From the NCBI RefSeq assembly GCF_036172515.1, contig NZ_JAXKVW010000012.1, positions 1 to 64,000 on the forward strand: a stretch of DNA of 64,000 nucleotides. Direction: 5' to 3'. Below are positions 15,232-33,643 of this stretch, piece by piece; within the stretch, counting starts at the first letter, position 1; the number at the start of each line of letters is the position of its first letter. The notes beneath the pieces were generated by a model. The model worked only from the letters and a program-made list of their open reading frames with translations. It made no database searches and was not told where the DNA came from. Origin of the DNA: Flexistipes sp. (lineage in GTDB: Bacteria > Chrysiogenota > Deferribacteres > Deferribacterales > Flexistipitaceae). The translations under genes were made by a program, and so were the position numbers.

Positions 15232-15676
15232 TTAAAAAGTTAAGTAATATCTTTTCATATTTTCGAAAAGATATCACTCCCAGTATTCTTATAAAATAAC
15301 AATAAAGTTCTGAGCACTTAAATTTAAGTCCCCGAATATGTGGGATACTTATTCAAAAGTCAAAAGTCTCAACCTGCCATTTCGACCGGAAGCGAGCACT
15401 CAGTACGGTGCTCGGTGGAGCGGAGATAAAGCTCCTCCCCTAAATTAGGGGAGGTTGGGTGGGGTATGATATTAAGATGTTTGACGATAGAGACCTCTCG
15501 ACTACGCTCGAGGTGACAGTTTTTTGCACATCATTAGCTATGGGCGGAAAAATAGAATGTTAAACATATTTACCAGTCTTTCAGACTGGTTCTGGTCACA
15601 GGCATCCTCTCAAAATCGAACTAAGTGCGAAACTTGATTAAATATGTTAAAATAAAAATAAAAAGTGGAGTTGATC
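15232..15676. repeat. composite repeat island between two surface-protein genes
   Basis: The island holds the GACCGGAAGCGAGCAC / GTGCTCGGTGGAGCGG module, then a hairpin CTCCTCCCCTAAATTAGGGG, then the ATTAAG..TGTTTGACGATAGAGACC block, the GGTGACAGTTTTTTGCA block and the ACCAGTCTTTCAGACTGGT hairpin (15552-15596). It ends with AAGTGCGAAACTTG (15623-15636), the same inverted end as in the MITE-like elements. From 15423 to about 15596 it matches 18750-18930 closely. I see no gene here. Confidence 0.75.
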
Positions 15677-18499
15677 ATGAAAAAGTTATCTTATTTTATA
15701 GCTGTTTTCTTATTGTTGTTTCTCTACTCTTGCGGTGGTTCAGGTGGAGAATCTTCAGATTCCACTAATATACAGCCTGAAGCTCCAGCTGCTTCCGCAG
15801 TTCAGGTAACCGGAAGAGCTATTCTGGGACCATTAAGTAATGCAAATGTAAATGTTTATTGTTCAGATAATTTATCTGCTGCTGTTTTTGCTGGCAATAC
15901 TTCAGATTATAACATCAACAGTTATAACCAGACAGGTATTTTCTCCTTTTCTGATAATAATTCGTGTTCTTTTTACCTGGTAGAGGTGAATGGAGGCAGC
16001 GATATTGATCCCAACGATGACGGAATTGTAAACACTACTGATATTATTAAAAACAGTGGAAAGATTCGGGCTTTCTTAACGGAAAGCTCTTTTACTGGCA
16101 ACATCACTGTTAATGTTTTAACAGAGATAGCTTACAGACTTCTGCAAAGCAGGCTGGATATAGGGTATCTCAGCGTAAATGATTTAATAAGAGATTTAAA
16201 CATAATTTCCGAAAAATTACTAAGCAGTGATATCACGGGTGATGATGTGATAAATTCGGATGACCTTCTTCACTTTGACCCTTTGGAACATAACATTTAT
16301 TTTAAACATGCAGAGCCGGGTAAAAGCTACGAAGATTTACTCCCCGATGATAATACCAGTTCTTTGACCTTTATAGAATCTATATACGAAAATGTTCGTT
16401 TTAATTTAGATGATATTACCGGGAAAAATATCTCTGATGATTTATCTAACATTTATTACAAGGATGAAGACGGTGACGGTTACAGTGATAGAGACAATGC
16501 TGTAGTAAGTTACGAGAAACCTCCCGGATATTCTTCAATACCGCCGCCTATTATTGTTACCACGACAGAAGATACAATAAATCCTTCCGATAACAAAATT
16601 TCACTTCGTGAAGCTGTAAACAATGCTTACAGTAATCAGCCTGTTATTTTTGACCAGGCTTTGGACGGTGAAGTAATTTATCTGAATAAAATTGCAGATA
16701 ATCATACCATATTAAAAGGTGAAGTTATGGGGATGAGAATGGAGCCGAGCGGGCCGGTATCATATCTCGAAGGGTATTTTGACCGGGATTACGGTAAATC
16801 TGCGCTGTATGCCCGAAAAAATCTAATTCTGGATGCATCAGATCTTACAAATGGAATAACACTTAAATGGGATGGAGTTTCTGATAATAAATATGCAAGA
16901 GTACTGGCAGTATATGGTGATCTTGTTTTGAAAAATGTGTCCATTACCGGCGGTAATAATAAAGCCGAAAAGCTGGATTCGAAAAGTCAGCCATGGACAT
17001 TGTCCCGGGGCTGCGGTGTGGCAGTTTGGGGAACGGCGAAAATAATCGGCAGTAAGATATACCATAACAGTTGTCTGGGGGATTTTGACCAGGCAAGAGA
17101 CAGGGGTGCCTTTGGCGGAGGAGTATATGCAAATATCGTTAAGATAGAAGACTCGGTTATCAGCGGTAATGAGGTTGTTGGTGTCGGAGCAGCCGGAGGT
17201 GGAGTTTATTCTGTCGGAGGCATAGATCCGTATTCCGATAATTCAATAATTAAAAGGTCAAGTATCTCCGGTAATCTTATTCAGGGGATGTTTGCTTACG
17301 GTGGTGGAATATATTCAGACGGCGGCAGTATAGGTAATCAGAAAAAAATTACAGTGGTTAATTCAACTGTAACGCAGAATCTCGCCGAGCCTTATCCATA
17401 CCTTCCACCCTTTCTCCTGGATATGGGTTATTGGCGTGGCGGCGGCATTTACATGTCAAACGGCTATATGGAAATAAAAAGCTCCACAATTGTGAATAAT
17501 GAAGTAGGTGGGAAACTTAGAATAGATGATTTGAATAAACCGAATATAGGCGGCGGCGGTATTGCAGCTACCATAGGAAACGCTCACGCTGTGGAAGATA
17601 TGAAGATAAGCCAGTCTATAGTTGCCGGAAATAAACTGCATTATGATAACGGTACAATAAAAGCCGAAGACATTTTCACCGGCTCATTGCTGTCTTTTAT
17701 TTCCGGTGGCTACAACTTGTTTGGTAAAGTTAATTTTGATCATATTTTAGTGCCTGTAGGAGAGTACTTGTGGAGATCTTTGATCAGAATACATTATCCG
17801 AAAGTGGGAGATGTAAACAGTGTTGATATGAGTCAGGTGCTTAATCTGACAACAGGTATTGAAGAATCTTCTATAATCAACTCAAAAGGTGTTGATGCAG
17901 GTGGGCCTGTGATACTTTATTACCGGCCCGCCGGTAATGCCCTGGATAAAATTCCTGACACTTATTCGGTGAATTATGTAGAAGGTCAATATAATTTGTC
18001 GGGCAGCACTGCAGACAGCGATTTCTTACGTATATTTTTAGACAGGCTGGAAAATTATCTGCAAGTAGATAACTTAACCAATAATTTTATAACTTCTTTT
18101 GAGGATTTTCTTTTGAATTACGATATAGACCCTGATACTTCAGGAATTCAGCATTATACAGATCCTGACAATAATTCCATTACTTCTTTGGATAATGTGA
18201 ATTTCTATGGTCCTGCAGAAACCTGGCCTTCCAATCTTAGTAATTATCCTTATATTTTATTTTGGCAGAAACTTCGCGAATATATGCATGATAATTACAG
18301 CTTGAGTTATGATGAAAGTATTCTGAACGGAAATATCTGGGATAGCTTGTTTTCAACGGGATATTTAAACGAAAATTCAAATATTTATATGGATATTCTG
18401 ACAAATACCTTGAACAATAGCATTTCTGTTTATGACCAGCTTGGTTTTGAGAGGCCTGCAAATTTGCAATCTGATATAGGTGCATTGGAGATAAATTAA
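15677..18499 (+). CDS. surface lipoprotein with CSLREA-like motif and right-handed beta-helix
   Basis: A roughly 940-residue lipoprotein: the signal peptide ends LLFLYSCGGSGG, so the cysteine would be lipidated. The first third contains calcium-loop-like segments (DPNDDGIVNTTDIIKN, DITGDDVINSDDLLHF, DEDGDGYSDRDN). Near residue 315 ISLREAVNNA matches the CSLREA-type motif found before beta-helices of bacterial surface proteins. Then come repeated ISGN/GGGVY turns (GAFGGGVYAN, AAGGGVYSVGG, AYGGGIYSDGG, RGGGIYMSNG) typical of polymorphic outer-membrane-protein-like parallel beta-helices. The ATG at 15677 follows GGAG; an upstream GTG is less likely. Function is probably adhesion or surface structure, which is inferred. 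Confidence 0.82.
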   Translation: MKKLSYFIAVFLLLFLYSCGGSGGESSDSTNIQPEAPAASAVQVTGRAILGPLSNANVNVYCSDNLSAAVFAGNTSDYNINSYNQTGIFSFSDNNSCSFYLVEVNGGSDIDPNDDGIVNTTDIIKNSGKIRAFLTESSFTGNITVNVLTEIAYRLLQSRLDIGYLSVNDLIRDLNIISEKLLSSDITGDDVINSDDLLHFDPLEHNIYFKHAEPGKSYEDLLPDDNTSSLTFIESIYENVRFNLDDITGKNISDDLSNIYYKDEDGDGYSDRDNAVVSYEKPPGYSSIPPPIIVTTTEDTINPSDNKISLREAVNNAYSNQPVIFDQALDGEVIYLNKIADNHTILKGEVMGMRMEPSGPVSYLEGYFDRDYGKSALYARKNLILDASDLTNGITLKWDGVSDNKYARVLAVYGDLVLKNVSITGGNNKAEKLDSKSQPWTLSRGCGVAVWGTAKIIGSKIYHNSCLGDFDQARDRGAFGGGVYANIVKIEDSVISGNEVVGVGAAGGGVYSVGGIDPYSDNSIIKRSSISGNLIQGMFAYGGGIYSDGGSIGNQKKITVVNSTVTQNLAEPYPYLPPFLLDMGYWRGGGIYMSNGYMEIKSSTIVNNEVGGKLRIDDLNKPNIGGGGIAATIGNAHAVEDMKISQSIVAGNKLHYDNGTIKAEDIFTGSLLSFISGGYNLFGKVNFDHILVPVGEYLWRSLIRIHYPKVGDVNSVDMSQVLNLTTGIEESSIINSKGVDAGGPVILYYRPAGNALDKIPDTYSVNYVEGQYNLSGSTADSDFLRIFLDRLENYLQVDNLTNNFITSFEDFLLNYDIDPDTSGIQHYTDPDNNSITSLDNVNFYGPAETWPSNLSNYPYILFWQKLREYMHDNYSLSYDESILNGNIWDSLFSTGYLNENSNIYMDILTNTLNNSISVYDQLGFERPANLQSDIGALEIN

Positions 18500-19151: not shown

Positions 19152-22100
19152 ATGAAACGTAGATTTTATCGAAAATCGGTAATGTTTTTGGGAGTGCTTT
19201 TGTTTGTATTTTTATCGGGTACAGCTCTTGCTGTCGACTACGGGGATAACATTACGGGTATATCAGGATTGTATACTAATTCTGATAATATCACCGCATC
19301 GGAAATTGTTGGCGATAATGAAAGCGCTAAAGCCTACGGTGTGTATGGGCTTAACGTGGACAATTTGTCTTTCCATAATACTACCAGCGGCAGTATAAGT
19401 GCTCACAGCAGTATCGGAAATGTAACAGATGGTAACAATTATTCCTCTGTTGCTACCGGTGTTTATCTTAGGGATAATGTTACACAGTTTAATAATGAGG
19501 GAGTTATATCTGCTGTTTCAGAGGCTGGAAGTTCTATCGACGGCTACTTAACTTCATCTGCCACAGGTGTTTTCAGTGATGCTGATATGAATAGTTTCAG
19601 CAACTCAGGAGATATTATTGTTAATGCAAATATTGGGAATAACAATGACAATAATTCAAATAATTATATTGATATTGAGGGAGTATCGGGGATATATATG
19701 ACCGGTAGTGTTGATAATTTTTTGAACAGCGGCAATATTTCCGTTTCTGCTGAAGGCGGGAATGGAATAGGAAACCTGGATTCTTACTCCGATGTTTATA
19801 TTGATAATGTTATAGGTGTAGAGTTAGGTTCATTGATAGAAAGCTTCAATAATACCGGAACAATATCGGTAGATGCAAAATTGGGGTTTAATGAAGGATA
19901 TTACACATATAATGGGATAGAAAATGTTTACGGTATTAATGCTGGTTTTGTCAATGCTGACTTTAGTAACACAGGAGTAATAGATGTTAATGTTCAAACC
20001 GGTGATGCCAACAGTTTTGATGATGGACTGTCGTATATTGATGTTGTTTACGGAGTTAATTTAAATGGTGCAGTTGAGTCATTTACCAACTCCGGACAAA
20101 TATCAGTCAGCGCTTTGACCGGGAATGCTAATGGTTACGATAATAGCGATTCATACATTTATGATGCTAATGGAGTATACTTAAGTTTTGTGGAGAGTTT
20201 TGAAAATTCCGGCTTTATAGATGTTAATGCTCAATCCGGTGATGCCAATGATAATTACACTGAATCTTATATTGAGTATGTTCGCGGTATATTTGTTGAT
20301 AGTTTAAATGATTCATTTACCAACTCCGGACAAATATCAGTCAGCGCTTTAACCGGAGATGTTAATGGCTATAATTCTTATGCATATGTTGACGAAGTTG
20401 TTGGAGTTTCTTCTTATTTTAATGAGGGCGATTTCAGTAATGAAGGTTTGATTGATGTTAATGTTCAAACCGGTAATGCTGACAATATTTCATCCGGTTC
20501 TTTCATAAGTTATGTGTCAGGAGCCTCTGTTAATGGTGTTAATGACTTTCAAAATTCAGGAGATATTACTGTTAGTGCTGAAACAGGCAGTGCAAATGAT
20601 AATGAAACTAACGTCAGTATAGACACTGTTTCCGGAGCATCAGTATATGGTGATGTGAATAATTTTAATAACTCAGGTAGTGTTATAGTAAGTACCACTA
20701 CCGGTGATGCTAATGGCTATTCTTCGAATGCTGAATCGTACAACATTAAAGGAACTTTGCTTTCGGGCAATGTTGGTGATTTTAACAATTCGGGAAATAT
20801 AGTGGTTGAAAATATTGTGGGGAATGCAAACGGTGACAGCAGTACAGTTAGAACATCTGATGTATTTGCTTTAGATAAAAACGATATTAATGCAGGAACT
20901 TATGGAGCTTATATTGGAAATGATTTTGATGTGAACAGTTTTGTCAACTCCGGCAATATAGAGGCTTCTGTAAAAGCAGGTGGCGCTATTGGTGATTATT
21001 CTGAAATTTACGCAGGTCATGTGCTGGGAGTTGATATAGGAAGCACTTCAGAGGTATTTTACACAGATTCAATTCCTTCAAATATCCCTCAATTACAGGG
21101 AACTGTACAACAAGTTCCATCATCTGGTTTACATGTCGGCTCATTTGAAAACAGCGGCACCATTTCCGCTTCTGCTGAAGCTGGAGATGCAGCCGGACAG
21201 GAATCTTGGGTAAGTGTTTTTACGGCAAATTCAGTTTGGATTGATTACAGCAAAGTGTTCAATTTCACAAATAAAGGGACCATGATTTCTCAGGGCTCAG
21301 CAGGCAGTGCAACAGGAATAGACTCAATAGTAGGTTTGTCTGATTTTGGTATGGGTTTTCTCGGTGAAGTGGGTAATTTTACAAATGAGGGAAGTATTGT
21401 CACAGAAGTATCAGCTGGTAACGCAACAGGAGAAGGTTCAGCTGTTTTAGTAGGTTCATCTGGAATGAAAGTAGGGGGTGCCTCAATAGATGAGGTTTCG
21501 TTGAAGGTGTCAAGAACATACTTCCCATATTTTCCTGTGTATGGAGTGCTTTTTGGCAATACATTATACAATTTTGAAAATTCGGGGACAGTTGCTGTTT
21601 CTGCCGAGGCAGGCAGCGCTATGGATAATAATTCCCGTGTGGGTGTCTCTGGGGTTTTAGGAGTCCTGGCAGGTATGAATCCGGAAACCGGAGGTGTTGG
21701 TAATTTTGTTAATGATGGTGACATTACGGTTGATGCAAGAACCGGCGATGCTTCCGGCTACGATAGCGATATAAGTATTTTTCAAACAGCCGGAGTTGGT
21801 GTGGCCTCCTATATGGATAATTTTACAAATACCGGTACTATTTCAGTAAATACTGAAGCGGGGGACGCTTCAGGAATTGAATCAGGAGTTGACCTTGGTG
21901 GGTTAACGGGGATTTTAGTAGGCTCCGGATATTACGGCGGCCTTGGGAATTTTATAAATGAAGGTTTAATTTCCGTCAGTTCACTGGGTGGCAATGCTGC
22001 TGCAGATAACACTTCTGTTGGAATTGAAGGTGTTACCGGTGCGAATTTTGATGCCTATTCGGACATGGTAAATAATTTTGAAAATACGGGTGATATTTCA

Positions 22101-24341
22101 GTAGACACTAAACTAGGTAATGCTGCAGGTAACAATACAGATGTGGATATTTGGGATGTTGCGGGTACAAGTTTTGATGCAAAGGTGGATAACTTTACAA
22201 ATACCGGCACTATTTCTGTTAACGCTGAAACCGGTGAAGCTTCAGGGGATAATTCTGATATTGATATAGCTAATATAATAGGAGTTATGACAAGATACAG
22301 GTCAGTAAGAGCATTTATGGATGTAACGCCGGGTAGTGATAGTGGTGTTAATAACTTTACTAACTCAGGAAATATTAATGTTGTAGCTAAAAGTGGAGGT
22401 GCGCTTGGCTATGACACTACAGCCGAAATAGAAAGTATATTTGGAGGAGAATTTAATTCCTCCGTTGATAACCTTACAAACTCAGGGGAAATATCTGTAG
22501 TAGCCTCAGCAGGTGACGCTGCGGGAGATAATTCAACAGTTAATATTTCCGGTGTAGGTGGTTTGAGTTTTGAAACAGGAGTAAAAAATGCTGAAAATAC
22601 AGGCTCTGTTTTGACAAGTGTAAGAGCCGGCGATGCATCAGGTGACAATTCGACTATTAATATTGAAGGAATAACTGGAATATATTTAGGCGGAGATTCT
22701 GAGTTTGTGAACAACGGACACATTGGAGTTTCAGTTACCGGTGGTAAAGGTTCAAATATAAATCAGGTTGCAGGAATGGTAGCCGCTGATACAGATAACA
22801 CCACTATCGAAAATAACGGCTTGATTTCTGTAAAAATTGATGCAGAGCAGGCAGACTCTGTAGACAATGTTTCCGGCATTTATGTTGTACGCGCGCCCGG
22901 AGACACTGTTAACATATCCAATACCGGTATGATAAACCTGTGGAGCAGCGCTCCTGAGGCTGATTCAGATATTCGTACACTGAGAATCGGAGAAGACTCA
23001 TCCGTAAGACTGCAGGATAAATTTGCAATTACTTTCGGTCAGATGGGTGTGGATGAAAGACCTATTTACATGGATAATAACTCAACACTCGATTTGAATG
23101 ATGCCGGGCTTATAGCAAGAACCGGAACGGATTTAAGCTTCAACAGTCCATATTATCTCATTGAGAATGATAATGGTACGGTTTCGGGAGAATTCGGTAA
23201 ACTATATAAAGGGTTTACCAATCCTGAAATAGGTGTTTCATGGTATGGCAGTGACAGGGGAGAGAATTCCGGCGTTGTTTTTGACTATAATCCACAAAAT
23301 TCAACTCCTTCCCTTGGTGTTACAAACACTGGAATAATAGCAGATTCGATATTTGACAGGATACTCTCAGGCAGTTCATTTTCCGGCGGATTGTTTGCAT
23401 CCGGTACCAAAGTGTATTATGCACAGGCCGAACAAAACGACAATACAGCAACTGATGCAGGCTCGTCACTGGGATATTTAAGTGGCAATGAGGCTGGTCC
23501 TCAGGAAAATAAAGATGCTGTCTATCTTTATCCTTTCTATGAGAGTTTGCAAGGTGATGATTTAGCTTATGATAGTACCGCAACAGGTTTAGTTTTGGGA
23601 TATGAGAAGGGAATCGGAGACAGACTGCGTTTTGGAGTTTTCGGCGGCTATGCAAAAGGAAATCTTGATTTTGATATTCAGGGATCCGATGAAGAAGATC
23701 AGACATTCTATTCTCTGGGTATTAATCTCGACAGACTGGCAGGATACGGTTCTCCCTGGTATTTTGGTCTGAAAGCTATGGCATACCGGACAAATCACGA
23801 CTATACAGGGTATACCGGACCAAGTTATCAGTTAACAGAAGACGCAGACTATGACAGTAACGGTCTTAAAGGTAGGTTAACTGTAGGTTACCGAATTGCT
23901 GGCAGCGATTGGGAAATTATGCCTAATGTTGGTGCTGAAATGACACGCTGGGAACTTGACAGTTTTACAACAGATGCATCAGATTCAGCCTGGGATAAGA
24001 AATACAGCAGTGAGAGCAACTCTTATACAACACTGATGGCGGGAATTTCCGGTGAAAAGAACTGGAGAACATCATCCAATAACAGACTTTACTTGGGAGC
24101 GCTGGTAAGACTGGAGCAGGTAGCCGGTGATAATGATATATCGGTTGATCAGGAGCTGGCTAACTTGAATTCCGGAAAAGTGGAAGTTGAGCAGGATATA
24201 AGTGATTTCTCCATTGTTGGTAAAGCAGAGCTTGGTATAGAAATTGGAAAACGTTACTCTTTTAGTTTGGTACCGGGAATAAAAATGAACTCTGACTATA
24301 AATCTTATTCCGGTCAGGCTGTATTTCGTTTGAAATTTTAA
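19152..24341 (+). CDS. giant autotransporter with repetitive passenger and C-terminal beta-barrel
   Basis: A 1729-residue type V secretion protein. The signal peptide ends near GTALAVDYG. The passenger (about 30-1400) is built from some 30 repeats of roughly 35-60 residues around the phrase 'sFxNSGxISVxAxTGdAnGxxS', pointing to a long beta-solenoid rich in Asn, Ser, Gly and Asp. The last 280 residues form the outer-membrane barrel (LVLGYEKGIGDRLRFGVFGGY.., NLDRLAGYGSPWYFGLKAM) and end in aromatic VFRLKF, the BAM recognition signature. GGGGGAAG precedes the ATG. Some neighbouring repeats are nearly identical in DNA, suggesting recent duplication. It probably acts as an adhesin or surface fibre. 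Confidence 0.92.
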   Translation: MKRRFYRKSVMFLGVLLFVFLSGTALAVDYGDNITGISGLYTNSDNITASEIVGDNESAKAYGVYGLNVDNLSFHNTTSGSISAHSSIGNVTDGNNYSSVATGVYLRDNVTQFNNEGVISAVSEAGSSIDGYLTSSATGVFSDADMNSFSNSGDIIVNANIGNNNDNNSNNYIDIEGVSGIYMTGSVDNFLNSGNISVSAEGGNGIGNLDSYSDVYIDNVIGVELGSLIESFNNTGTISVDAKLGFNEGYYTYNGIENVYGINAGFVNADFSNTGVIDVNVQTGDANSFDDGLSYIDVVYGVNLNGAVESFTNSGQISVSALTGNANGYDNSDSYIYDANGVYLSFVESFENSGFIDVNAQSGDANDNYTESYIEYVRGIFVDSLNDSFTNSGQISVSALTGDVNGYNSYAYVDEVVGVSSYFNEGDFSNEGLIDVNVQTGNADNISSGSFISYVSGASVNGVNDFQNSGDITVSAETGSANDNETNVSIDTVSGASVYGDVNNFNNSGSVIVSTTTGDANGYSSNAESYNIKGTLLSGNVGDFNNSGNIVVENIVGNANGDSSTVRTSDVFALDKNDINAGTYGAYIGNDFDVNSFVNSGNIEASVKAGGAIGDYSEIYAGHVLGVDIGSTSEVFYTDSIPSNIPQLQGTVQQVPSSGLHVGSFENSGTISASAEAGDAAGQESWVSVFTANSVWIDYSKVFNFTNKGTMISQGSAGSATGIDSIVGLSDFGMGFLGEVGNFTNEGSIVTEVSAGNATGEGSAVLVGSSGMKVGGASIDEVSLKVSRTYFPYFPVYGVLFGNTLYNFENSGTVAVSAEAGSAMDNNSRVGVSGVLGVLAGMNPETGGVGNFVNDGDITVDARTGDASGYDSDISIFQTAGVGVASYMDNFTNTGTISVNTEAGDASGIESGVDLGGLTGILVGSGYYGGLGNFINEGLISVSSLGGNAAADNTSVGIEGVTGANFDAYSDMVNNFENTGDISVDTKLGNAAGNNTDVDIWDVAGTSFDAKVDNFTNTGTISVNAETGEASGDNSDIDIANIIGVMTRYRSVRAFMDVTPGSDSGVNNFTNSGNINVVAKSGGALGYDTTAEIESIFGGEFNSSVDNLTNSGEISVVASAGDAAGDNSTVNISGVGGLSFETGVKNAENTGSVLTSVRAGDASGDNSTINIEGITGIYLGGDSEFVNNGHIGVSVTGGKGSNINQVAGMVAADTDNTTIENNGLISVKIDAEQADSVDNVSGIYVVRAPGDTVNISNTGMINLWSSAPEADSDIRTLRIGEDSSVRLQDKFAITFGQMGVDERPIYMDNNSTLDLNDAGLIARTGTDLSFNSPYYLIENDNGTVSGEFGKLYKGFTNPEIGVSWYGSDRGENSGVVFDYNPQNSTPSLGVTNTGIIADSIFDRILSGSSFSGGLFASGTKVYYAQAEQNDNTATDAGSSLGYLSGNEAGPQENKDAVYLYPFYESLQGDDLAYDSTATGLVLGYEKGIGDRLRFGVFGGYAKGNLDFDIQGSDEEDQTFYSLGINLDRLAGYGSPWYFGLKAMAYRTNHDYTGYTGPSYQLTEDADYDSNGLKGRLTVGYRIAGSDWEIMPNVGAEMTRWELDSFTTDASDSAWDKKYSSESNSYTTLMAGISGEKNWRTSSNNRLYLGALVRLEQVAGDNDISVDQELANLNSGKVEVEQDISDFSIVGKAELGIEIGKRYSFSLVPGIKMNSDYKSYSGQAVFRLKF

Positions 24342-24447: not shown

Positions 24448-24477
24448 AAGTCCCCGGCCAGACCGGGGACTTTTTTT
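24448..24477 (+). terminator. rho-independent terminator after the autotransporter
   Basis: AAGTCCCCGG and CCGGGGACTT form a strong stem with a short loop, followed by a run of seven T residues. It separates the autotransporter from the hydrogenase operon. Confidence 0.9.
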
Positions 24478-24496: not shown

Positions 24497-24525
24497 TTGA
24501 TTAAAAATGTTATAAATTGTACAAT
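24497..24525 (+). promoter_or_regulatory. putative promoter of the hydrogenase/c-di-GMP operon
   Basis: TTGATT (24497-24502) and TACAAT (24520-24525) are spaced by exactly 17 bases and lie between the terminator and the AAAGGTAAG ribosome binding site. This supports the start at 24575 rather than the longer frame whose TTG is the -35 box itself. Confidence 0.5.
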
Positions 24526-24574
24526 TTCCTCATTGTTTGAGTCATATTTTGCTTCATCAAAAGGTAAGATTCTT

Positions 24575-26011
24575 ATGTCAAAAAATTTGAAAATAGATCC
24601 TCTCACCCGCATTGAGGGGCATCTGAAAATCAGTGTGGAAGAGGAAGCCGGTACAGTCAAAGATGCGAAAGTTCATGGCGAAATGTACCGCGGTTTTGAA
24701 AAAATTCTCCATGGAAGGCACCCGTTTGATGCTGCGAGGATTACCCAGAGGGTATGCGGTATATGCCATGAGGTGCACGGGGTTGCTTCGGTAAAAGCTA
24801 TTGAAAATTTGTACAAAGTGGATGTTCCTTTTAACGGTCTGATTCTCAGGGATTTGATTCTGGGCTTGCACGTTATCACCGATCACATCATTCATTTTTA
24901 TAATCTGTGTCTTCCTGACTATGTTGATTTTAATGTTATCAGTGAGTATTCGGGATCGGACAGAAATCTTCTTAAAATAAAAGAGCTGATAACCCGCCCT
25001 TCCAACCCTTTTTTAAAAAGGAAAGAGAATGCAAAGCTCATCCGGAACGAAGATTTGTGTATCAGAATGGTTCGTAATTATTTTAAAGCTATTGATGTAA
25101 GGTCAAAAGCTGCTTCCGGACTTGCAATACTCGGAGCAAAAACACCTTTCTGCCAGGCGTTGCTGCCGGGCGGTATTACAACCGATGTTACACTGGATTC
25201 TTTGTATAAATATCACAAGGTACTGGAAGAAACAGCAGATTTTGTGATTCAGGATTATTACGCTGATGTGCAGATATTGTGCGAATATTTTCCGGAATAT
25301 TTCGGTATAGGCTCAACTTATGATCGTTTCTTTGGTTATGAATCACTGTCAATGAGCTGGGAGCCGCTTTTTAAAGAGGGTGTTTTACACGACAGTAAAC
25401 TCTATCCTATGGATTATAACAAAATAAGTGAAAGACTTGCATCATCATATTATGATGATGAAGGGAAACCGTATTATGGTAAGAACCATGCTTACTCTTG
25501 GATAAAGGCGCCTAGATATGATGGGCTTCCTATGGAGACCGGCCCTATCGCAAGGCTATTGATAAGCCACAATAAAACAATATCTACTGAAACTGCGAAA
25601 TATTATCAAGGTGATGTTCTTTCTTCAACGATGTCCAGATTGCTGGCAAGAGTTGTGGAATGTAAAATAATTTTAAAATATTTGTTTGATCTGATTTCAA
25701 AATACAGACCCGGTGATGACAACATCGTAACTGTGGATCCGAATCAAAACATTACAGGTTCTGCTTTTGCAACCTCCATAGCTGCCAGGGGAGATCTGAT
25801 GCATAAAATTTCAACGGTGGACGGCAGGATTGATGAGTATAATATGGTAATGCCCTCCACCTGGAATTTCGGGCCTTCTACTGGTAGTATGAAGGGTATC
25901 GTGGAAAAAGCGCTTATCGGCGTAAAATCTTCCGATGAAGCCTCAATAAAGTTGCATACGGAAAGGATTGTTAGGAGTTTTGATCCGTGTACGGCATGCT
26001 CAATACATTAG
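24575..26011 (+). CDS. [NiFe] hydrogenase large subunit without C-terminal extension (H2-sensor-like)
   Basis: A 478-residue protein that binds the NiFe(CN)2CO active site. The L0 motif DPLTRIEGHL is at 9-17, the N-terminal ligand pair RVCGICHEVHG gives Cys61 and Cys64, and the C-terminal pair is DPCTACSIH with Cys472 and Cys475. The stop codon follows His478 directly. Catalytic uptake hydrogenases carry a further tail that a HyaD/HoxM-type protease removes after this His; H2-sensing (HoxC/HupV) and some energy-converting types lack it. The ATG at 24575 fits the family's N terminus. The next gene starts 8 bases downstream. Hyp maturation genes are not in the window. Confidence 0.93.
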   Translation: MSKNLKIDPLTRIEGHLKISVEEEAGTVKDAKVHGEMYRGFEKILHGRHPFDAARITQRVCGICHEVHGVASVKAIENLYKVDVPFNGLILRDLILGLHVITDHIIHFYNLCLPDYVDFNVISEYSGSDRNLLKIKELITRPSNPFLKRKENAKLIRNEDLCIRMVRNYFKAIDVRSKAASGLAILGAKTPFCQALLPGGITTDVTLDSLYKYHKVLEETADFVIQDYYADVQILCEYFPEYFGIGSTYDRFFGYESLSMSWEPLFKEGVLHDSKLYPMDYNKISERLASSYYDDEGKPYYGKNHAYSWIKAPRYDGLPMETGPIARLLISHNKTISTETAKYYQGDVLSSTMSRLLARVVECKIILKYLFDLISKYRPGDDNIVTVDPNQNITGSAFATSIAARGDLMHKISTVDGRIDEYNMVMPSTWNFGPSTGSMKGIVEKALIGVKSSDEASIKLHTERIVRSFDPCTACSIH

Positions 26012-26018
26012 GTGGTTT

Positions 26019-26984
26019 ATGTTAACAAGAAGGCAGCTGTTGCAACACAGTGCAAAACTATCCATGCTATTGTTCGGCAATAAAGCTTTTGCAGTTGATA
26101 TTTTTGACGGCTTTATCAAACTTGAGGAAAAAAGGATAAAAGTGATTTTTATTCAGGGGCAGGTTTGTGCCGGCTGTTCGATCTCCATGATGTATGGCAA
26201 TGAAACTAACTTTCTGCAGTTTATCAGGCATATTATTTCTCTTCAGGTGCATCCCATGCTCTCCTTTGAAAGTTCTTATGATTACCTTGAAATGCTTGAA
26301 AAAACAGTAAAAAACGGTGATTATATTCTTGTCTTTGAAGGAAGCATTCCAATGGGTATTCCCAACGCATGCAATATAGGGGGTATGCCTTTAAAAGAAT
26401 TTATAAAACCTGCGGTTGAGAATGCTTCTATAATTGTGGCTTCCGGCACATGCTCTTCGCACGGCGGTATACCCGCAGCTGTGAATAATGAAACCGGAGC
26501 CGTATCCATTATCGAATACCTTGATATGCAGAATATTCAAAAGCCGTATTTACGTATTCCCGGCTGTCCTGTACACCCTGATTGGCTTATGGGCAGTATC
26601 TCCTATATTGCGGCCACCGGAAAAATCCCAAAAATAACGGAATTGAAAACGCCGAAAACATATTATAAAGACACTATTCATAACCATTGCAACAGGTTTC
26701 AGCATTTCAGCCAGGACTTATACCTATCTGATTATGCACAGGATAAAACCAACTGTCTCCTTAAAAAAGGCTGCCGGGGCCCTGTCACATATTCAGACTG
26801 CCCGATTCGGAACTGGAACGGCAATACGAATTTTTGTATTAAAAGCAATGCCCCCTGTGTGGGATGTGTTCATCCGGACTGGCCGTTTGACAGTGATATG
26901 TATATTACTGCTGAAAAGGTGGAAGATATCACCTGGTGGGAGATGCAGAAAAAAGTGAAAAACAGGGAAAAAGATAAAAAATGA
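26019..26984 (+). CDS. [NiFe] hydrogenase small subunit with Tat-like leader
   Basis: A 321-residue iron-sulfur subunit that wires the active site to an acceptor. Proximal-cluster ligands are in QVCAGCSIS (Cys50, Cys53), SGTCSSHGG and PGCPVHPDW. The second domain has HNHCNRFQHF, CLLKKGCRGP, SDCPIRNWN and NFCIKSNAPCVGC, so all three clusters can form. The start follows AGGTGG. The N terminus MLTRRQLLQHSAK..KAFA looks like a twin-arginine leader (Arg4-Arg5), although its hydrophobic stretch is short. There is no C-terminal membrane anchor. The stop overlaps the next start (ATGA). A Tat leader would be odd for a cytoplasmic H2 sensor. Confidence 0.9.
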   Translation: MLTRRQLLQHSAKLSMLLFGNKAFAVDIFDGFIKLEEKRIKVIFIQGQVCAGCSISMMYGNETNFLQFIRHIISLQVHPMLSFESSYDYLEMLEKTVKNGDYILVFEGSIPMGIPNACNIGGMPLKEFIKPAVENASIIVASGTCSSHGGIPAAVNNETGAVSIIEYLDMQNIQKPYLRIPGCPVHPDWLMGSISYIAATGKIPKITELKTPKTYYKDTIHNHCNRFQHFSQDLYLSDYAQDKTNCLLKKGCRGPVTYSDCPIRNWNGNTNFCIKSNAPCVGCVHPDWPFDSDMYITAEKVEDITWWEMQKKVKNREKDKK

Positions 26985-29641
26985 TGAAGCGGATAAAAAA
27001 ATTTTTCAGACAACTTTCCGTTGATTTGCATTTTCTTGTACCTGTGACAGTAATAGTCTTCTTCTTGTGTCTCATTATAATCATTGCCAAGGACAAGATG
27101 GTAAGCGATGTTGAAAGTTCTCTCAACCGCTATATGGGTTATCTGAAAGATACGGTTTTTTTATCAACTTATGATTCCCTGAAAAAGGGAAATATGAAAG
27201 TTTTTGAAGATATACTGACACAAATAGGTACGTATGAGCAGGTGAAGGAATTTTCGCTTATAAATAAAAACGGCAAAGTTGTGTACTCCACCAACAAGGA
27301 ATTTTTGAAAACCACAGATTCTAAAGCGGCAGAAATCAGCAGACCTTTGACAGAAGCCGGACGTGATAAAATTACTTATTATTTTCCTGTAGTTACAGTG
27401 GATTACTGCACCCGGTGTCACAGGCAGTGGGAAAGCGGTGAAATAAACTCGGTGTACAGAATTTCGTTAAACAATTCTTCTTTTGTTAATTTGGTGAATA
27501 TTTCAAGTTTTTCCAATAAAGCTATCTTTATCGGCGGATTCATTGCCATTCTTCTTATTTATATTCTTTATTCGTATATTAAGCAGCTGAGATTCAGTGA
27601 AATTATTTCTGAAAGTGAAAAGAAGTACAGGTCGTTGTTTGAAAATATTATGGATGTTCAGTTCTGTATAAATGAAAACGGTGAACTTATTCTTATAAGT
27701 CCTTCCGGTGTTGGTTTACTTAACTACAGAGATAAAAATGAAATTTTGTATAAGAACTTTTCTTCTAAACTTCTGTATGACGAACAGACTTATCAGGATT
27801 TGGTAAAGAAAGTTTATTCAGAAAAGGAAGTTTACGGCTATGAGATGATTCTTAAGAAAAAGAATGGAGAACCGTTAATTGCCGAGGCCAACATGCGTCT
27901 TGTGGAAAAGGGCGGAGAAAAGATTATAGAAGGTATTTTCAGAGATATCACTGAGCGTAAAAACAATGAGAAACAGCTTCAGCTTCTTGCGAGTGTATTT
28001 GAAAATACCATAGAATCAATTATGATTGTCAGTTCTGACGGGAAAATTCAAAAAGTTAACCAGGCTTTTCTTGATTCCACGGGTTATTCAGAAGAAGAGA
28101 TTGTGGATTTCTCACCTTTGGAAATTCAGCCGTTTAATGAAAACAGAAGATATCTGTTAAAAGTGGCGGCTGAAGTGAGAAAAAATGACAGATGGAAAGG
28201 AGAGATATGGTGCCGTAAAAAAACCGGTGAAATCTTCCCCCAATGGATGTCGGTGAGTGTCTTGAAAGATGATAACGACAATGTGATGAATTATATCATA
28301 CTTATGCATGATATAACTTCGCTTAAAAAAAGTGAAGAAGAACTGAGGCATCAGGCGACCCACGATATGCTCACAGGTCTTCCCAACAGACAGCTGTTTG
28401 AAGACAGATTAAAAAGGGCGGTTGCTCATCATGAAAGATACGGCGGCAAGTTTGCACTTCTTTTCATAGATCTGGACAACTTTAAAAATATTAACGACAC
28501 GCTGGGACATAAAATCGGCGATCTTTTGCTTATCAAGGCGGGCGAAACCCTCCTGGATTGCTGCAGGGAATCTGACACGGTTGCCAGGCTGGGTGGGGAT
28601 GAGTTTACCATTATACTGAATGATATCGAAGATGAAAACGGTATTGTTACTGTTACTGAAAGGATATTAAAGGCCGTTGCTTCTGCCAAGAAGGTCGGCG
28701 GACATGAAGTGTATACAAGTGTAAGCATCGGAATTGCAGTTTATCCTGCAGATGGCAGGAATTCTGTATCCTTAATAAAAAATGCGGACATGGCTATGTA
28801 CAAAGCAAAAGAGCTGGGAGCCAATGATTATTATTTTTACAACAGCGATCTTAAAGTCAGGCTGGAGAGGAAGATTTCTCTTACTACAAAACTGGCCAAG
28901 GCTCTGGAAGAAGATGATATAAAAGTGTATTTTCAGCCACTCGTCGATTTGACATCCGGAAAAATAACTGGTGCGGAGGCACTGGCAAGGTGGCAGACGG
29001 ATACATCCCGTTTTATACGCCCGGATGAATTTATAGAAGCGGCTGAAGAAAGCGGACTGATAGGTACTCTGGGAGATCATGTGCTGAATAAAAGTTGTGA
29101 GAATTTAAGAAAATGGCACGATGCAGGTTTTGAAAATTTAACAATATCGGTAAATCTGTCGGTGAAACAGATGAACGATCTGAATCTTGTGACAAAAACC
29201 AAGAATGCCTTGAAAAAATATTCGCTGAAACCAACTGATCTTGTTTATGAGATTACGGAAAATGTGGCAATGAAGGATTTTGATGCTACGCTTGCTCTTT
29301 TTAAAGAATTGAGCGGACTTGGTGTAAAAATATCTATGGATGATTTCGGTACTGGCTATTCCTCTCTTGCCTATCTGAAACAATTTCCATTGAATTCTAT
29401 AAAGATAGACAAGGTATTTTTGCAGAATATTCCTGATAATGAAAAGGATAATAACCTTATAAAGGGTATAGTCTGGATGGCTAAAAGTCTGGGATTGAAT
29501 GTTGTTGCTGAAGGAGTGGAGAATAAATCCCAATCCGACTTCCTGCGGGAAATCGGATGCAACGGATGCCAGGGATATTACTACAGCCGGCCTTTGCCGG
29601 AAGATGAGTTTTTTGACTATTTAAAAGGCAGTAAGGCGTGA
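26981..29641 (+). CDS. membrane PAS/PAS/GGDEF/EAL protein with periplasmic CxxCH haem motif
   Basis: An 886-residue bifunctional cyclic-di-GMP protein. A membrane helix (about 16-37), a periplasmic domain (38-179) and a second helix (180-199) precede two PAS domains (about 205-325, 330-450). The periplasmic domain contains DYCTRCHRQW (Cys143, Cys146, His147), a covalent haem c site. The GGDEF domain has RLGGDEF near 535 with an upstream RESD inhibitory site. The EAL domain has GAEALARW near 663, DDFGTGYSS and VAEGVEN, so both synthesis and hydrolysis appear possible. It overlaps the hydrogenase small subunit by 4 bases, so the two are coupled. I infer that it reads the redox output of the hydrogenase. 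Confidence 0.92.
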   Translation: MMKRIKKFFRQLSVDLHFLVPVTVIVFFLCLIIIIAKDKMVSDVESSLNRYMGYLKDTVFLSTYDSLKKGNMKVFEDILTQIGTYEQVKEFSLINKNGKVVYSTNKEFLKTTDSKAAEISRPLTEAGRDKITYYFPVVTVDYCTRCHRQWESGEINSVYRISLNNSSFVNLVNISSFSNKAIFIGGFIAILLIYILYSYIKQLRFSEIISESEKKYRSLFENIMDVQFCINENGELILISPSGVGLLNYRDKNEILYKNFSSKLLYDEQTYQDLVKKVYSEKEVYGYEMILKKKNGEPLIAEANMRLVEKGGEKIIEGIFRDITERKNNEKQLQLLASVFENTIESIMIVSSDGKIQKVNQAFLDSTGYSEEEIVDFSPLEIQPFNENRRYLLKVAAEVRKNDRWKGEIWCRKKTGEIFPQWMSVSVLKDDNDNVMNYIILMHDITSLKKSEEELRHQATHDMLTGLPNRQLFEDRLKRAVAHHERYGGKFALLFIDLDNFKNINDTLGHKIGDLLLIKAGETLLDCCRESDTVARLGGDEFTIILNDIEDENGIVTVTERILKAVASAKKVGGHEVYTSVSIGIAVYPADGRNSVSLIKNADMAMYKAKELGANDYYFYNSDLKVRLERKISLTTKLAKALEEDDIKVYFQPLVDLTSGKITGAEALARWQTDTSRFIRPDEFIEAAEESGLIGTLGDHVLNKSCENLRKWHDAGFENLTISVNLSVKQMNDLNLVTKTKNALKKYSLKPTDLVYEITENVAMKDFDATLALFKELSGLGVKISMDDFGTGYSSLAYLKQFPLNSIKIDKVFLQNIPDNEKDNNLIKGIVWMAKSLGLNVVAEGVENKSQSDFLREIGCNGCQGYYYSRPLPEDEFFDYLKGSKA

Positions 29642-30409
29642 CGCGTAATGCGTAATGCGTGAAAAGTGAGGTAGAGAGATGGTGAAGTGGGGAAGTAGGG
29701 AAACAATTTCCGTTTTTTCAAGTCATTACGAGGAGTCCGCTCAATGGCGGACGAAGCGGTAATCTCAAGTATGAGATTGCTTCGTCGCTAGCACTCCTCG
29801 CAATGACCGTAAACGTCATCGCGAGGGCGGCAGCCCGTGGCGATCTCATGACCTGCATACGAGATTGCTTCGCTACGCTCGTAATGACCGTACTGTGAGT
29901 TTGTTTCGTCGTTGTGACTCTTTGCAAGAATGCCTACGGTTAGCACCAGTCTTTTGACTGGTAAATATGTTTAACATTCTATTTATTCACCTAAAGGTGA
30001 ATTCCAGACGTTTTTTGGGAGTCATTACGAGGGACAAAGTCCCGAAGTAATCTCATGTCCCGTAAGTGAGAATACTTCTTAAATACGAGATTGCTTCGTC
30101 GTTAGCACTTCTCGCAATGACGGCCTTTGGCCTCGTTGTTAGCACTCCCTGAACTGTTAAATGCCAGAGGCAATCAGCATAGCTCATATTTAACAGGGTG
30201 AACAAAGACGAGTAAAAAGTAAAAGTGCGATACTTGAATTCTTATTTTTCGCCATTCCTATGAACCACTGTTATGTGGTGAAGAGAAAACTGTTTCATGT
30301 GAAGTGATATAATAAACATATATGCGGGTATATTTATTCAGATGTCTATTGTTACAAGTGATGTATTTGATGTATAATTAAAAGACTTGCATATTTTTGG
30401 AGACAAATT
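29642..30409. repeat. mosaic of dispersed repeats
   Basis: This 770-base stretch has no gene I would defend. It starts with a GCGTAATGCGTAATGCG run and a GTGAAGTGGGGAAGTAGGG tract (to 29702). Inverted 'GTCATTACGAGG..CCTCGCAATGAC' units follow at 29730-29806, 29816-29905 and 30022-30122, with GAGATTGCTTCGTCG cores. The ACCAGTC hairpin module lies in reverse at 29938-29984, a CTGTTAAAT / ATTTAACAG hairpin at 30154-30196, and an AAGTGCGATACTTG end at 30223-30236. The last 170 bases are AT-rich and should hold the promoter of the next gene. Confidence 0.75.
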
Positions 30410-33400
30410 TTGAGGAATAAACTCTTTCTTTTGGTCCTGCTTGCGGTATTTTTGTTTATAAGCGGCTGTTTTCATGAAAACAAGCTTACCCCTGAGGAAA
30501 GGGCATATCTTGAGAAAAAAGAGACAATTACGTTTGTAAGCCAGAACAGATACCCTCCATTTGAATATGTGAACAATTACGGTCAGATAACCGGAATGAG
30601 TATTGAACTGGCACGCTGGATGGGGATTGAATACAATTTTCAGCCCCGTTTTCTACACACGACTTTCGCAAACGCCAAGGAAATGGTTTTGTCAGGAGAG
30701 GCTGATGTTATAACCACATTTTTTTATTCCCGCAAAAGAGATAAAAAATATGAATTCACTGATATGATATTCCGGGTTCCGGCTTCCATCTTTGTAAAAG
30801 ATAACAATACAACAATCCAGGGCAGCGAGGATTTAAACGGAGCAACTCTGGCAATTCAGCGGGGAGATTATGCGCTGGATTTTCTGGCAAGCAAAAACAT
30901 CAACTATAATATCCTGTATACTGATAATTTTGAAGAGGCGGCAAATAAGGTCTTAACAGGGAAAGCTGATGCTACTGTGGCTGACGAGCAGATAGTAATT
31001 CACTATCTGAAAGACAACAATTTGCTGAACGAAATAAAAATAGTGGGAGATCCCCTTTATGTGGGCAAAGACTGCATGGCTGTTGCCGAAGGCAATGATA
31101 TTCTTGTTTCCGTCCTCAGCAAAGCGGTGAGAAGAGCTAAAGATACGGGAGTCCTTAAAAAGATTGAGCACAAATGGATGGGAACAAAGCTGACTCCTGC
31201 TTATGTCAAATATATCCCCTATCTTATTTTATTTCTTTTGATACTTGTTGGACTGGTTATTACGGTTTGGTACTGGAATATAAGCCTGAAAAAGCAGGTT
31301 TATTTAAAAACAATGGATTTGAGAAAACGGGAAAAGAACCTGCTGGATATATTAAGAGCGGCAAGAGATGTCGCAATAATAAAAGCCGAGCTTGTAAATG
31401 ACTTATGGAAAATTGTTATTTTTAACAAGGGGGCTTCCAGGCTTTTCGAATATGAATCATCAGAAATTGTTGGAAAGTCGATATTAAAGCTGTTCCCGGA
31501 AGCCGAAAAAGAAAGTATCCAAGATCTGATTAATCAAATAATTTCGGGAAATTCTGAAATAAAACACGACGGAATAAAAGGAGAAATGGATTTCCGGAAA
31601 AAAGGCGGGCAAAACTTTCCGGCTTTATTTACTATTAATCCTGTTTACGACAATAAGGGGGTTGTCAATTCGATAATTCTGGTGGCAACGGATATTACCA
31701 AACGGAAAAAAGCGGAAAAAGCTATTGCCGAAAGTGCAGAGCGTATGAATGCACTGATAAATGCTTCGCCGGATTTTATCTGCTTTAAAGATGAAAAAGG
31801 GCGCTGGCTTATCGCAAACGAGGCTGCACTTGAATTATTTTCTCTTAAAAATGTTGATTATTATAAAAAGACAGATGCTGAATTAGCTGAATTAGTGGGC
31901 GACTGCTACAAAGAAGCTTTTATAAATTGTCTGAAAACTGATGAAGAAGCATGGAAGAGCGGGAATGTATACAGGTCTGAGGAGCGTATTGTTTCTCCGG
32001 ATGGTACTGAAAATGTGTTTGATATGTTTAAAGTTCCTATTTTTAACGAAAATGGTGAGAGAAAAAATTTGGTTATTCTCGGCAGAGATATTACGGAACT
32101 CAAACGGTACGAGAAAGAAATTCTGGAAGAAAGGGAGTATTTAAGTGTAACCCTCCGCTCAATCGGGGATGCCGTGATCTCAACCGACGTGAATGGAAAA
32201 ATTGTGGTTATCAACAGAGTGGCGGAGGAGTTGACAGGATATTCAAGGAATGAGGCTGCAGACAGAGATATAGACAGTGTTTTTAATATAGTTGACAGAA
32301 AGACGGGAAGACGCCTTGAAAGCCCATATCAAAGGGTTTTGCAAAGCGGTAAAAATATCACACTGGAAAATGACATTCTTCTTATCTCTAAAAACGGGGA
32401 TCAGTATATCATCTCCGACAGCGGAGCTCCGATTTTTGACAACGAAAAAAATATAATCGGTGTTGTTATTGTTTTCAGGGATATTACGGAAAACGAGATG
32501 ATGCAGCAGGAACTGCTAAAAATGGAAAAACTTAAATCAGTGGGAGTATTGGCCGGGGGTATAGCTCACGATTTTAATAATATTCTGACGGCAATAAGTT
32601 CAAATATTTCACTCGTCAGAATAATAAATGATGAGAAGAAAGCTGAGAAAATATATGAAAAGGTTGATAATTCTATTGAGCGGGCTAAAAAACTGACAAA
32701 TCAGCTTCTGACATTTTCCAAAGGAGGTTCTCCTGTAAAAAAAATAACCCAGATCAAAGATATTATAAAGGATACTGTTGATTTTACTTTGGCAGGTTCG
32801 AATGTAAAAGTTGTTTACCAGTTTGAACCGGATACGCCGCCGTTATATGTTGACAGCAATCAGGTGAGTCAGGTGTTTCAAAATTTGGCAGTTAATGCCA
32901 GGGATGCCATGGAAAACGGCGGTAAACTTATGATACAGGTGGAAAAGGCTGATATTACCGATGATAAAAAACTGAATCCCGGTGAATATCTAAGGATTAA
33001 GTTTATAGATGAAGGCAAGGGGATATCTCCTGAAACTCAGCAGAAAATTTTTGACCCTTTTTTCACTACGAAAACAGGCGGTTCCGGACTGGGGCTTGCA
33101 ACATCCTATTCGATAATTACAAAGCACGGCGGTACGATTGAATTGGATTCAAAAGAGGGACTGGGGGCCACTTTTACAGTGGATCTGCCTGTAAACAGAG
33201 ATATCGGCGATATGACTGATATTTATGATGATACCATTGTCAGAGATAAATATGAGATTAAAGAAAGAGACGTTTTTAAAAATAAGAGGATTTTTATGCT
33301 GGATGATGAGGCGCCAATATTGGAAAGTTCGCGTATTTATCTGGAAATGATTGGATTTGAGGTGACAACAGCTGCAAGTGAGGACGAGGTTTATGAGAAA

Positions 33401-33643
33401 TTCCAAAAAAATATCTTTGATATTGCGATTCTTGATCTTACCATTCCGGGCTCAAGAAGCGGTGAGCAGATTCTCCAGGATATCAAGGAAATAGACGAAA
33501 AAGTCAAAACAGTTGTCACAAGCGGATATTCGGAAAATGATGTAATGAAAAATTATAAGGATTACGGGTTTGATGAGTGTATTTTGAAACCTTTTGATTT
33601 TTCGAAGCTTGAAAATATCTTGCAGTCGCTTTTGAATGGGTGA
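30410..33643 (+). CDS. lipoprotein-like SBP/PAS x3 hybrid sensor histidine kinase
   Basis: A 1077-residue hybrid kinase that starts at a TTG preceded by TTTGGAG. The N terminus has a lipobox-like ISGC. Residues 35-265 form a family-3 solute-binding domain (amino-acid type: NRYPPFEYVNNYGQITGMSIE, GEADVITTFFYS), followed by a membrane helix (265-290). Three PAS domains (about 305-435, 446-570, 580-700), HisKA with AGGIAHDFNN (His720), HATPase and a C-terminal receiver (DIAILDLTIPG) follow. The kinase core is closely related to that of the gene at 6300, suggesting duplication with a different sensor domain. The ligand is unknown. A short gap precedes the ABC-2 operon, so cotranscription is possible. 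Confidence 0.9.
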   Translation: MRNKLFLLVLLAVFLFISGCFHENKLTPEERAYLEKKETITFVSQNRYPPFEYVNNYGQITGMSIELARWMGIEYNFQPRFLHTTFANAKEMVLSGEADVITTFFYSRKRDKKYEFTDMIFRVPASIFVKDNNTTIQGSEDLNGATLAIQRGDYALDFLASKNINYNILYTDNFEEAANKVLTGKADATVADEQIVIHYLKDNNLLNEIKIVGDPLYVGKDCMAVAEGNDILVSVLSKAVRRAKDTGVLKKIEHKWMGTKLTPAYVKYIPYLILFLLILVGLVITVWYWNISLKKQVYLKTMDLRKREKNLLDILRAARDVAIIKAELVNDLWKIVIFNKGASRLFEYESSEIVGKSILKLFPEAEKESIQDLINQIISGNSEIKHDGIKGEMDFRKKGGQNFPALFTINPVYDNKGVVNSIILVATDITKRKKAEKAIAESAERMNALINASPDFICFKDEKGRWLIANEAALELFSLKNVDYYKKTDAELAELVGDCYKEAFINCLKTDEEAWKSGNVYRSEERIVSPDGTENVFDMFKVPIFNENGERKNLVILGRDITELKRYEKEILEEREYLSVTLRSIGDAVISTDVNGKIVVINRVAEELTGYSRNEAADRDIDSVFNIVDRKTGRRLESPYQRVLQSGKNITLENDILLISKNGDQYIISDSGAPIFDNEKNIIGVVIVFRDITENEMMQQELLKMEKLKSVGVLAGGIAHDFNNILTAISSNISLVRIINDEKKAEKIYEKVDNSIERAKKLTNQLLTFSKGGSPVKKITQIKDIIKDTVDFTLAGSNVKVVYQFEPDTPPLYVDSNQVSQVFQNLAVNARDAMENGGKLMIQVEKADITDDKKLNPGEYLRIKFIDEGKGISPETQQKIFDPFFTTKTGGSGLGLATSYSIITKHGGTIELDSKEGLGATFTVDLPVNRDIGDMTDIYDDTIVRDKYEIKERDVFKNKRIFMLDDEAPILESSRIYLEMIGFEVTTAASEDEVYEKFQKNIFDIAILDLTIPGSRSGEQILQDIKEIDEKVKTVVTSGYSENDVMKNYKDYGFDECILKPFDFSKLENILQSLLNG

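Follow-up and report, generated by a model that had tools for sequence, protein, structure and literature searches.

The stretch of DNA analysed here (the window, 64,000 nucleotides of contig NZ_JAXKVW010000012.1 from a Flexistipes species) contains an operon of three co-directional genes on the forward strand, which code for the large subunit of a [NiFe] hydrogenase, its small subunit, and a membrane receptor combining a predicted periplasmic haem domain with cytoplasmic GGDEF and EAL domains (Table 1). These are the domains for synthesis and hydrolysis of cyclic diguanosine monophosphate (c-di-GMP). All three genes had been claimed in an earlier note made from the sequence alone, and all three are present as open reading frames with Pfam matches. 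The large subunit gene had been started at a TTG codon at position 24497, which is 78 bases too early. Alignment with the relatives shows a common N-terminus MSKNLKIDPLTRIEGH beginning at the ATG at 24575, and what lies upstream of it is not conserved, which rules out the TTG; this codon falls within a weak promoter-like match (24497–24525). The gap between the two subunit genes measures 7 bases (26012–26018) rather than the 8 given before, while the ATGA overlap of small subunit and receptor genes had been correctly placed at 26981–26984. A terminator-like hairpin sets the operon apart from the gene upstream, which codes for a protein of 1729 amino acids.

All four nickel-ligating cysteines (L1 motif RxCGxC, L2 motif DPCxxC) and the cluster-ligating cysteines of the small subunit are present, as would be expected from a competent [NiFe] hydrogenase. 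The large subunit ends right at its last nickel-ligand motif, DPCTACSIH, and thus has no C-terminal extension, a trait known from the regulatory groups 2b and 2d and from some group 4 enzymes (PMC7294309). The small subunit begins with MLTRRQLLQHSAKLSMLLFG, a signal peptide for twin-arginine translocation (Tat) which had been overlooked in the earlier note. Because of this signal the enzyme is predicted to reside in the periplasm, the same compartment as the haem attachment site of the receptor. In the alignment every small subunit of the family to which the window enzyme belongs has the twin-arginine motif, and neither HoxB nor the small subunit of the group 2c enzyme of Ideonella dechloratans has it. 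The medial-cluster region contains four cysteines, including the extra cysteine of NiFeSe enzymes, and the nearest solved structures are periplasmic NiFeSe and NiFe uptake hydrogenases. No C-terminal membrane anchor of the HyaA/HybO type was found when the window small subunit was aligned with these references, and by its gene content the operon provides neither a cytochrome b partner nor a membrane anchor nor a maturation protease of its own. HypD, TatC and CcmF-type haem c maturation were found in the genome, with one CcmF inside the window; ResB-type haem c maturation was not found in this genome. Two further, ordinary hydrogenases (L001 and L002) are encoded there as well. As a side observation, in the small subunits of four other loci (L063, L066, L068, and L069) the second cysteine of the proximal-cluster CxxC is replaced by aspartate (CTGDS or CSGDS), as it is in the Ideonella 2c enzyme. 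Used as a query against phage records, the large subunit matched only uptake-type sequences (27–30% identity), which are uninformative here.

The CxxCH motif which had been proposed for the periplasmic part of the third protein is indeed found there: CTRCH occupies residues 143–147 and is flanked by two hydrophobic segments (hydropathy spans starting near residues 18 and 182). An AlphaFold2 model of the periplasmic domain yielded a single Cache fold. When this model was used for a Foldseek search the kinase WalK was found first (E 2e-6), and the haem c receptors GSU0935 and GSU0582 followed as numbers 18 and 26. Searching the PDB with a profile of the haem domain gave chance matches only, and the link to Cache domains and to the GSU receptors came solely from the fold search. 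In Pfam no DUF3365 or Tll0287-like match was obtained, the window protein matching dCache_1 alone and below the threshold, and naming the receptor a DUF3365 protein was therefore dropped. Judged from motif and model, with CxxCH lying in a periplasmic single-Cache fold between transmembrane helices, the domain is a candidate member of the c-haem Cache domains (sCache_heme). The ligands of the haem in GSU0935 are His144 and, in the low-spin state, Met60, with methionine binding favoured upon reduction (PMC8396549). The spacing of Met72 and His147 in the window receptor is similar to that of these two residues. The potential of the H2 couple is about -414 mV at pH 7. Haem midpoint potentials of -251 mV for GSU0935 and -156 mV for GSU0582 have been reported, together with a redox-linked methionine switch (PMC8396549). 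As these midpoints lie above the potential of H2, a haem like those of GSU0935 and GSU0582 could be reduced by H2. On the output side the GGDEF active site RESDTVARLGGDEF is retained together with the RxxD inhibitory site, and so are the EAL motifs EALARW, DDFGTG, and AEGVE.

The search for relatives covered 51 genomes of the phylum, named GTDB genomes, and 395 genomes of the Desulfobacterota-side phylum. Among the 51, a genome of the same genus carries an identical operon (94% identity in the large subunit), and the family on the Denitrovibrio/Seleniivibrio side (f5) contributes 15 further copies with 46–49% identity. Additional copies were found in Desulfuromonas, Thermodesulfobacteria, Desulfobulbus, and others among the named genomes, and the 395 genomes yielded a further set of loci. 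The layout is constant, with an extension-less large subunit, a Tat-exported small subunit, and, third in the row, a membrane protein whose periplasmic part contains CxxCH; gene order and haem site, for which the earlier note had proposed a check of conservation, are kept in about 40 other loci. What varies is the output. Pfam analysis of 19 third proteins assigned 13 to the methyl-accepting chemotaxis proteins (MCPs), three to GGDEF proteins, and three to histidine kinases: the output is nearly always an MCP, a histidine kinase in the Desulfuromonadales, and a GGDEF/EAL protein only in the window and its near kin. The three GGDEF proteins are those of the window, of the same-genus genome, and of one copy in Denitrovibrio, a locus that appears both as L049 and as L065. 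Whatever the output, an alignment of 15 periplasmic domains shows invariant L, KGNM, F, EFSL, YS, T, YC..CH, W, and N. CxxCH is constant across 43 loci, and the methionine of G-x-M is present in all but a Chrysiogenes-type pair. At 22 of 24 strong matches of the haem-domain profile, in 23 genomes, the two hydrogenase genes are linked. Distances between haem domains correlate with those between large subunits (Mantel r = 0.89, p = 0.0002), which, as expected, fits co-inheritance, and to which shared ancestry by itself would contribute too. Two loci deviate in detail: a transposase-like open reading frame lies between small subunit and MCP genes at L037 (5533–6954, forward strand), and a second MCP with a CxxCH motif (CLKCH) is divergently encoded just upstream of the operon at L063 (1947–3680, reverse strand).

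Absence of the extension and presence of the receptor go hand in hand. Where 3 kb or more of downstream sequence was available, pattern matching found a receptor at 44 extension-less loci and none at one (L060), and at none of 48 extension-bearing controls (Fisher p = 6e-26). Since Pfam revealed a histidine kinase at L060, the contrast becomes 45/45 versus 0/48, and the 45 loci all have a Tat-exported small subunit as well. The p-value overstates independence, as two sites enter twice (L049 with L065, L047 with L070), so that about 43 of the extension-less loci are unique, and many loci are closely related, though the contrast itself is stark. With the linkage repeated in about 40 other loci, and with this contrast, a chance adjacency of the three genes was ruled out. 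The controls, which are the next-nearest hydrogenases (30–36% identity), mostly have the small subunit gene first, carry an extension of 7–31 residues, and have no receptor. This comparison bears on the possibility that the enzyme takes up H2 as a soluble protein of the periplasm and feeds a cytochrome pool there, the receptor reading the redox state of this pool in a kind of energy taxis and the genes being merely co-expressed. The nearest solved enzymes are uptake hydrogenases of that sort, DcrA and the GSU receptors sense redox potential (PMC8396549), and an orphan receptor (L165, see below) exists. Yet gene order and missing extension coincide almost perfectly with receptor linkage, the uptake relatives show neither the gene order nor the missing extension nor a receptor, and the genome has two ordinary hydrogenases already, so that we regard this explanation as rather improbable. 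The window enzyme shares with group 1 periplasmic enzymes (HysAB, HynAB, HybOC) the Tat signal on the small subunit and the closest sequence similarity, with HysB also having the four-cysteine medial cluster; these enzymes differ in that they undergo C-terminal processing, mostly have the small subunit gene first, and come with partners of a respiratory or cytochrome kind, without a receptor gene. The window operon has neither an extension on its large subunit nor genes for a respiratory electron acceptor.

In a tree of 59 large subunits the family forms one clade (support 99/100), apart from group 2 and from the group 1 uptake enzymes among which the earlier note had seen a possible refuting placement. 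The group 2 clade, with HoxC, HupV, a 2c enzyme, and 2a enzymes, is supported by 100/97. When the additional loci are included (68 rows), support for the core clade of 21 rows is 100/100. A single change on this tree accounts for every extension-less enzyme; since the separating branch is weak (54/51), no single origin is claimed beyond the core clade. The output label takes two changes on the tree, with MCP as the commonest output. The assignment to the H2-sensor class made in the earlier note thus holds for the missing extension, as in regulatory hydrogenases, and for the conserved coupling, but not for a position with the sensor groups 2b and 2c. In particular, the window large subunit resembles group 2b in lacking the extension, and differs in not being placed with HoxC and HupV and in having a Tat-exported partner.

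The locus might also be merely a new example of the proposed diguanylate cyclase-linked group 2c, to which the earlier note had alluded. In both cases the hydrogenase genes adjoin one for a GGDEF/EAL protein, and both are proposed to sense H2, through c-di-GMP (PMC5037454). With the plasmid operon of Ideonella dechloratans (L159) as the one clear 2c reference, however, forced joining of this reference with the family was rejected by the approximately unbiased (AU) test (p-AU 1.6e-6), and the reference sits in the soluble group 2 clade, clustering with 2a and 2b enzymes. The Ideonella operon starts with the small subunit, followed by a large subunit with extension, a protease, and a GGDEF/EAL protein without CxxCH, and its enzyme is cytosolic (no Tat signal) with a CLVCTVH motif. 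The 2c consensus for the L2 motif is SFDxCLVCTVH (PMC4853749), and the window has SFDPCTACSIH together with a Tat signal. As tree, AU test, export, missing extension, large-before-small order, and the haem c site of the receptor all differ from this one reference, we reject membership in group 2c as extremely improbable.

Taken together, the three proteins very probably form one H2-responsive unit. Sequence and analogy make it likely that the operon encodes an extracytoplasmic H2 receptor, in which electrons from H2 would pass to the haem and thereby control c-di-GMP turnover. A folded dimer of large and small subunit would be exported by the Tat system, the large subunit needing no C-terminal processing, and, once in the periplasm, would act as an input enzyme dedicated to H2 oxidation rather than as a respiratory one. 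From its iron-sulfur chain, electrons would reach the one c-type haem that the Cache domain carries, and reduction of this haem may lead to low-spin ligation by His147 and Met72, by analogy with GSU0935 and GSU0582. The ligand switch would then move the Cache domain, and the signal could travel via the second transmembrane helix and the two PAS domains to shift the balance of c-di-GMP synthesis by GGDEF versus hydrolysis by EAL. Comparative genomics supports the earlier idea that H2 oxidation is read out via haem c; the electron relay itself, like complex formation, the ligand switch, and the direction of the c-di-GMP change, is what we infer. The same input module would drive an MCP, and hence H2 taxis, in most relatives, and a histidine kinase in the Desulfuromonadales.

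That the haem relay is the signalling route seems probable to us, and has to be weighed against signalling by docking, where H2 binding or the redox state of the iron-sulfur clusters would alter the contact between hydrogenase and Cache domain, as in HoxBC with HoxJ, and the haem would be structural or would sense nitric oxide (NO), oxygen, or general redox state, so that two inputs are integrated. Known regulatory hydrogenases signal by protein contact with a kinase (PMC6978683), and haem-Cache domains related to that of the window receptor bind NO (PMC12889525). HoxBC (group 2b) and HoxJ are also comparable to the window system in the extension-less large subunit and the dedicated signalling partner. 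They are distant (29% identity) and cytoplasmic, though, and their kinase needs no haem c, whereas no linked receptor of the core family, irrespective of output, lacks the haem site or the candidate methionine, and the window enzyme has no other obvious electron acceptor. Docking is therefore considered unlikely, while still the strongest competitor of the haem relay.

Several observations weigh against an H2-driven haem relay to c-di-GMP. Receptors of the Chrysiogenes-type lineage are devoid of the methionine and have two CxxCH motifs instead. Binding of NO by related haem-Cache receptors has been found in vitro (PMC12889525). An intact GGDEF/EAL haem receptor of 892 amino acids in a Denitrovibrio genome (L165, 8628–11306, forward strand) has no adjoining hydrogenase genes, and because it stands without them the receptor may also serve another donor or stimulus. 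Its neighbour is a pyruvate-kinase-like gene that also flanks the linked copy in a sister genome (L049), so that the input enzyme has apparently been lost and the receptor retained. In the linked GGDEF receptor at L065 (10331–13015, forward strand) a stop codon in frame separates GGDEF from EAL, with the EAL part running on in the same frame as a separate open reading frame; the large subunit there is shortened and its branch in the tree is long, which suggests that this locus is decaying. The GGDEF/EAL form is hence intact beside a hydrogenase in just two genomes of one genus. The second unlinked haem-domain match is a remnant of 252 amino acids without output domain in a Desulfobulbus genome. 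The two Chrysiogenes-side loci (family f10; L050, 5498–9954, forward strand, and L051, 5550–10013, reverse strand) contain a divergent extension-less hydrogenase ending in DPCIGCSVH, a Tat-exported small subunit, and an MCP, which is perhaps a two-haem version of the receptor.

The choice of output may be related to motility. Neither of the two genomes whose GGDEF/EAL operon is intact has flagellin; each has one MCP, and CheA-like proteins are represented by no more than a weak and divergent match. Flagellin is present in all f5 genomes bearing the family. A simple reading, from one genus, is that a non-flagellated genus swapped the chemotaxis output for c-di-GMP. The coupling of hydrogenase and c-di-GMP protein described in the earlier note stands as a conserved gene order with a haem signalling protein, but c-di-GMP is an unusual output and most relatives use an MCP. 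For the family as a whole we lean towards an unclassified, widespread clade of Tat-exported, unprocessed [NiFe] hydrogenases which acts as a dedicated extracytoplasmic H2-receptor system by reducing a covalent Cache haem, with outputs to MCPs in flagellated Deferribacterota and Desulfobacterota, to histidine kinases in Desulfuromonadales, and to c-di-GMP in the window genus.

The receptors find their closest counterparts among the c-haem Cache proteins (sCache_heme/DUF3365: GSU0935, GSU0582, Tll0287; DcrA), which likewise show a single Cache fold where CxxCH is inserted ahead of the final strands, MCP, histidine kinase, and GGDEF outputs, and, in GSU0935, an upstream methionine as redox-linked ligand. 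They differ in that no dedicated hydrogenase figures in their descriptions: the paper presenting haem-Cache domains as a class proposes signalling members as NO sensors and never mentions the word hydrogenase (PMC12889525). HydDB lists groups 2b, 2c, and [FeFe] C1–C3 as sensory (PMC5037454); putatively chemotactic [FeFe] group C2 is similar in its proposed H2 sensing through MCPs and belongs to an unrelated enzyme class. A census of c-di-GMP stimuli mentions neither hydrogenase nor molecular hydrogen (PMC8846402). In the open-access literature no description of Tat-exported extension-less [NiFe] enzymes with MCP, histidine kinase, or GGDEF haem receptors was found, a silence which, the search being limited to such papers, is absence of evidence only. 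Known H2-sensing [NiFe] hydrogenases are intracellular and kinase-coupled, and the window family would place the sensor outside the cytoplasmic membrane with a haem c relay, which looks like a little-noticed route by which anaerobes sense H2 outside the cell. If true, this would account for the way in which anaerobes move toward H2 or adapt their lifestyle to it. Estimates of H2 consumption made from genomes would change as well, since many of the genes that now carry the annotation of a periplasmic uptake hydrogenase probably code for sensors, and a missing C-terminal extension together with receptor linkage provides a simple annotation rule.

Table 1. Features of the hydrogenase-receptor operon; positions refer to the window, residues to the respective protein.
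Feature	Position	Strand	Basis and remarks
Terminator-like hairpin, then TTTTTGTTTC (T-run)	24448..24472	+	consensus match only
[NiFe] hydrogenase large subunit	24575..26011	+	478 amino acids, start ATG; Pfam NiFeSe_Hases E 1.6e-94; alignment of 15 relatives; tree
L1 nickel-ligand motif RVCGICHEVH	24749..24778	+	residues 59-68; Cys61 and Cys64 invariant among 15 relatives
L2 nickel-ligand motif DPCTACSIH	25982..26008	+	residues 470-478; stop codon directly after
[NiFe] hydrogenase small subunit	26019..26984	+	321 amino acids; Pfam NiFe_hyd_SSU_C and Oxidored_q6; subunit alignment
Twin-arginine core RRQLLQ of Tat signal peptide	26028..26045	+	residues 4-9; sequence, alignment
Membrane receptor: transmembrane helix (TM) - periplasmic haem-Cache - TM - PAS - PAS - GGDEF - EAL	26981..29641	+	886 amino acids; Pfam, hydropathy
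Periplasmic single-Cache domain with c-haem site	27089..27514	+	AlphaFold2 (predicted local distance difference test, pLDDT, 81; predicted template modelling score, pTM, 0.72); Foldseek
Met72 of KGNM motif, predicted distal haem ligand	27194..27196	+	conserved in 41/43 receptors; position equivalent to GSU0935 Met60
CTRCH, predicted covalent haem c attachment site	27407..27421	+	residues 143-147; C..CH invariant in relatives
Two cytoplasmic PAS domains, limits approximate	27599..28327	+	Pfam PAS_9, two stretches
GGDEF domain, active site and I-site intact	28355..28825	+	Pfam E 1.2e-50; motifs
EAL domain, catalytic motifs intact	28889..29593	+	Pfam E 1.1e-71; motifs

Around the operon, the upstream 1729-residue protein (19152–24341) is repetitive, rich in asparagine and serine, and secreted-looking with an autotransporter-like C-terminus; it had no Pfam match, and neither had a protein of 944 amino acids at 15665–18499. 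The window also encodes two hybrid histidine kinases whose periplasmic parts are solute-binding domains (SBP_bac_3; phosphonate-binding type), one at 6300–9800 and the other at 30410–33643, directly downstream of the operon. The intergenic stretch of about 770 bases in between (29642–30409) is palindromic and repeat-like (CGTCATTGCGAGG-type), and is possibly a miniature inverted-repeat transposable element or an element resembling repetitive extragenic palindromes.

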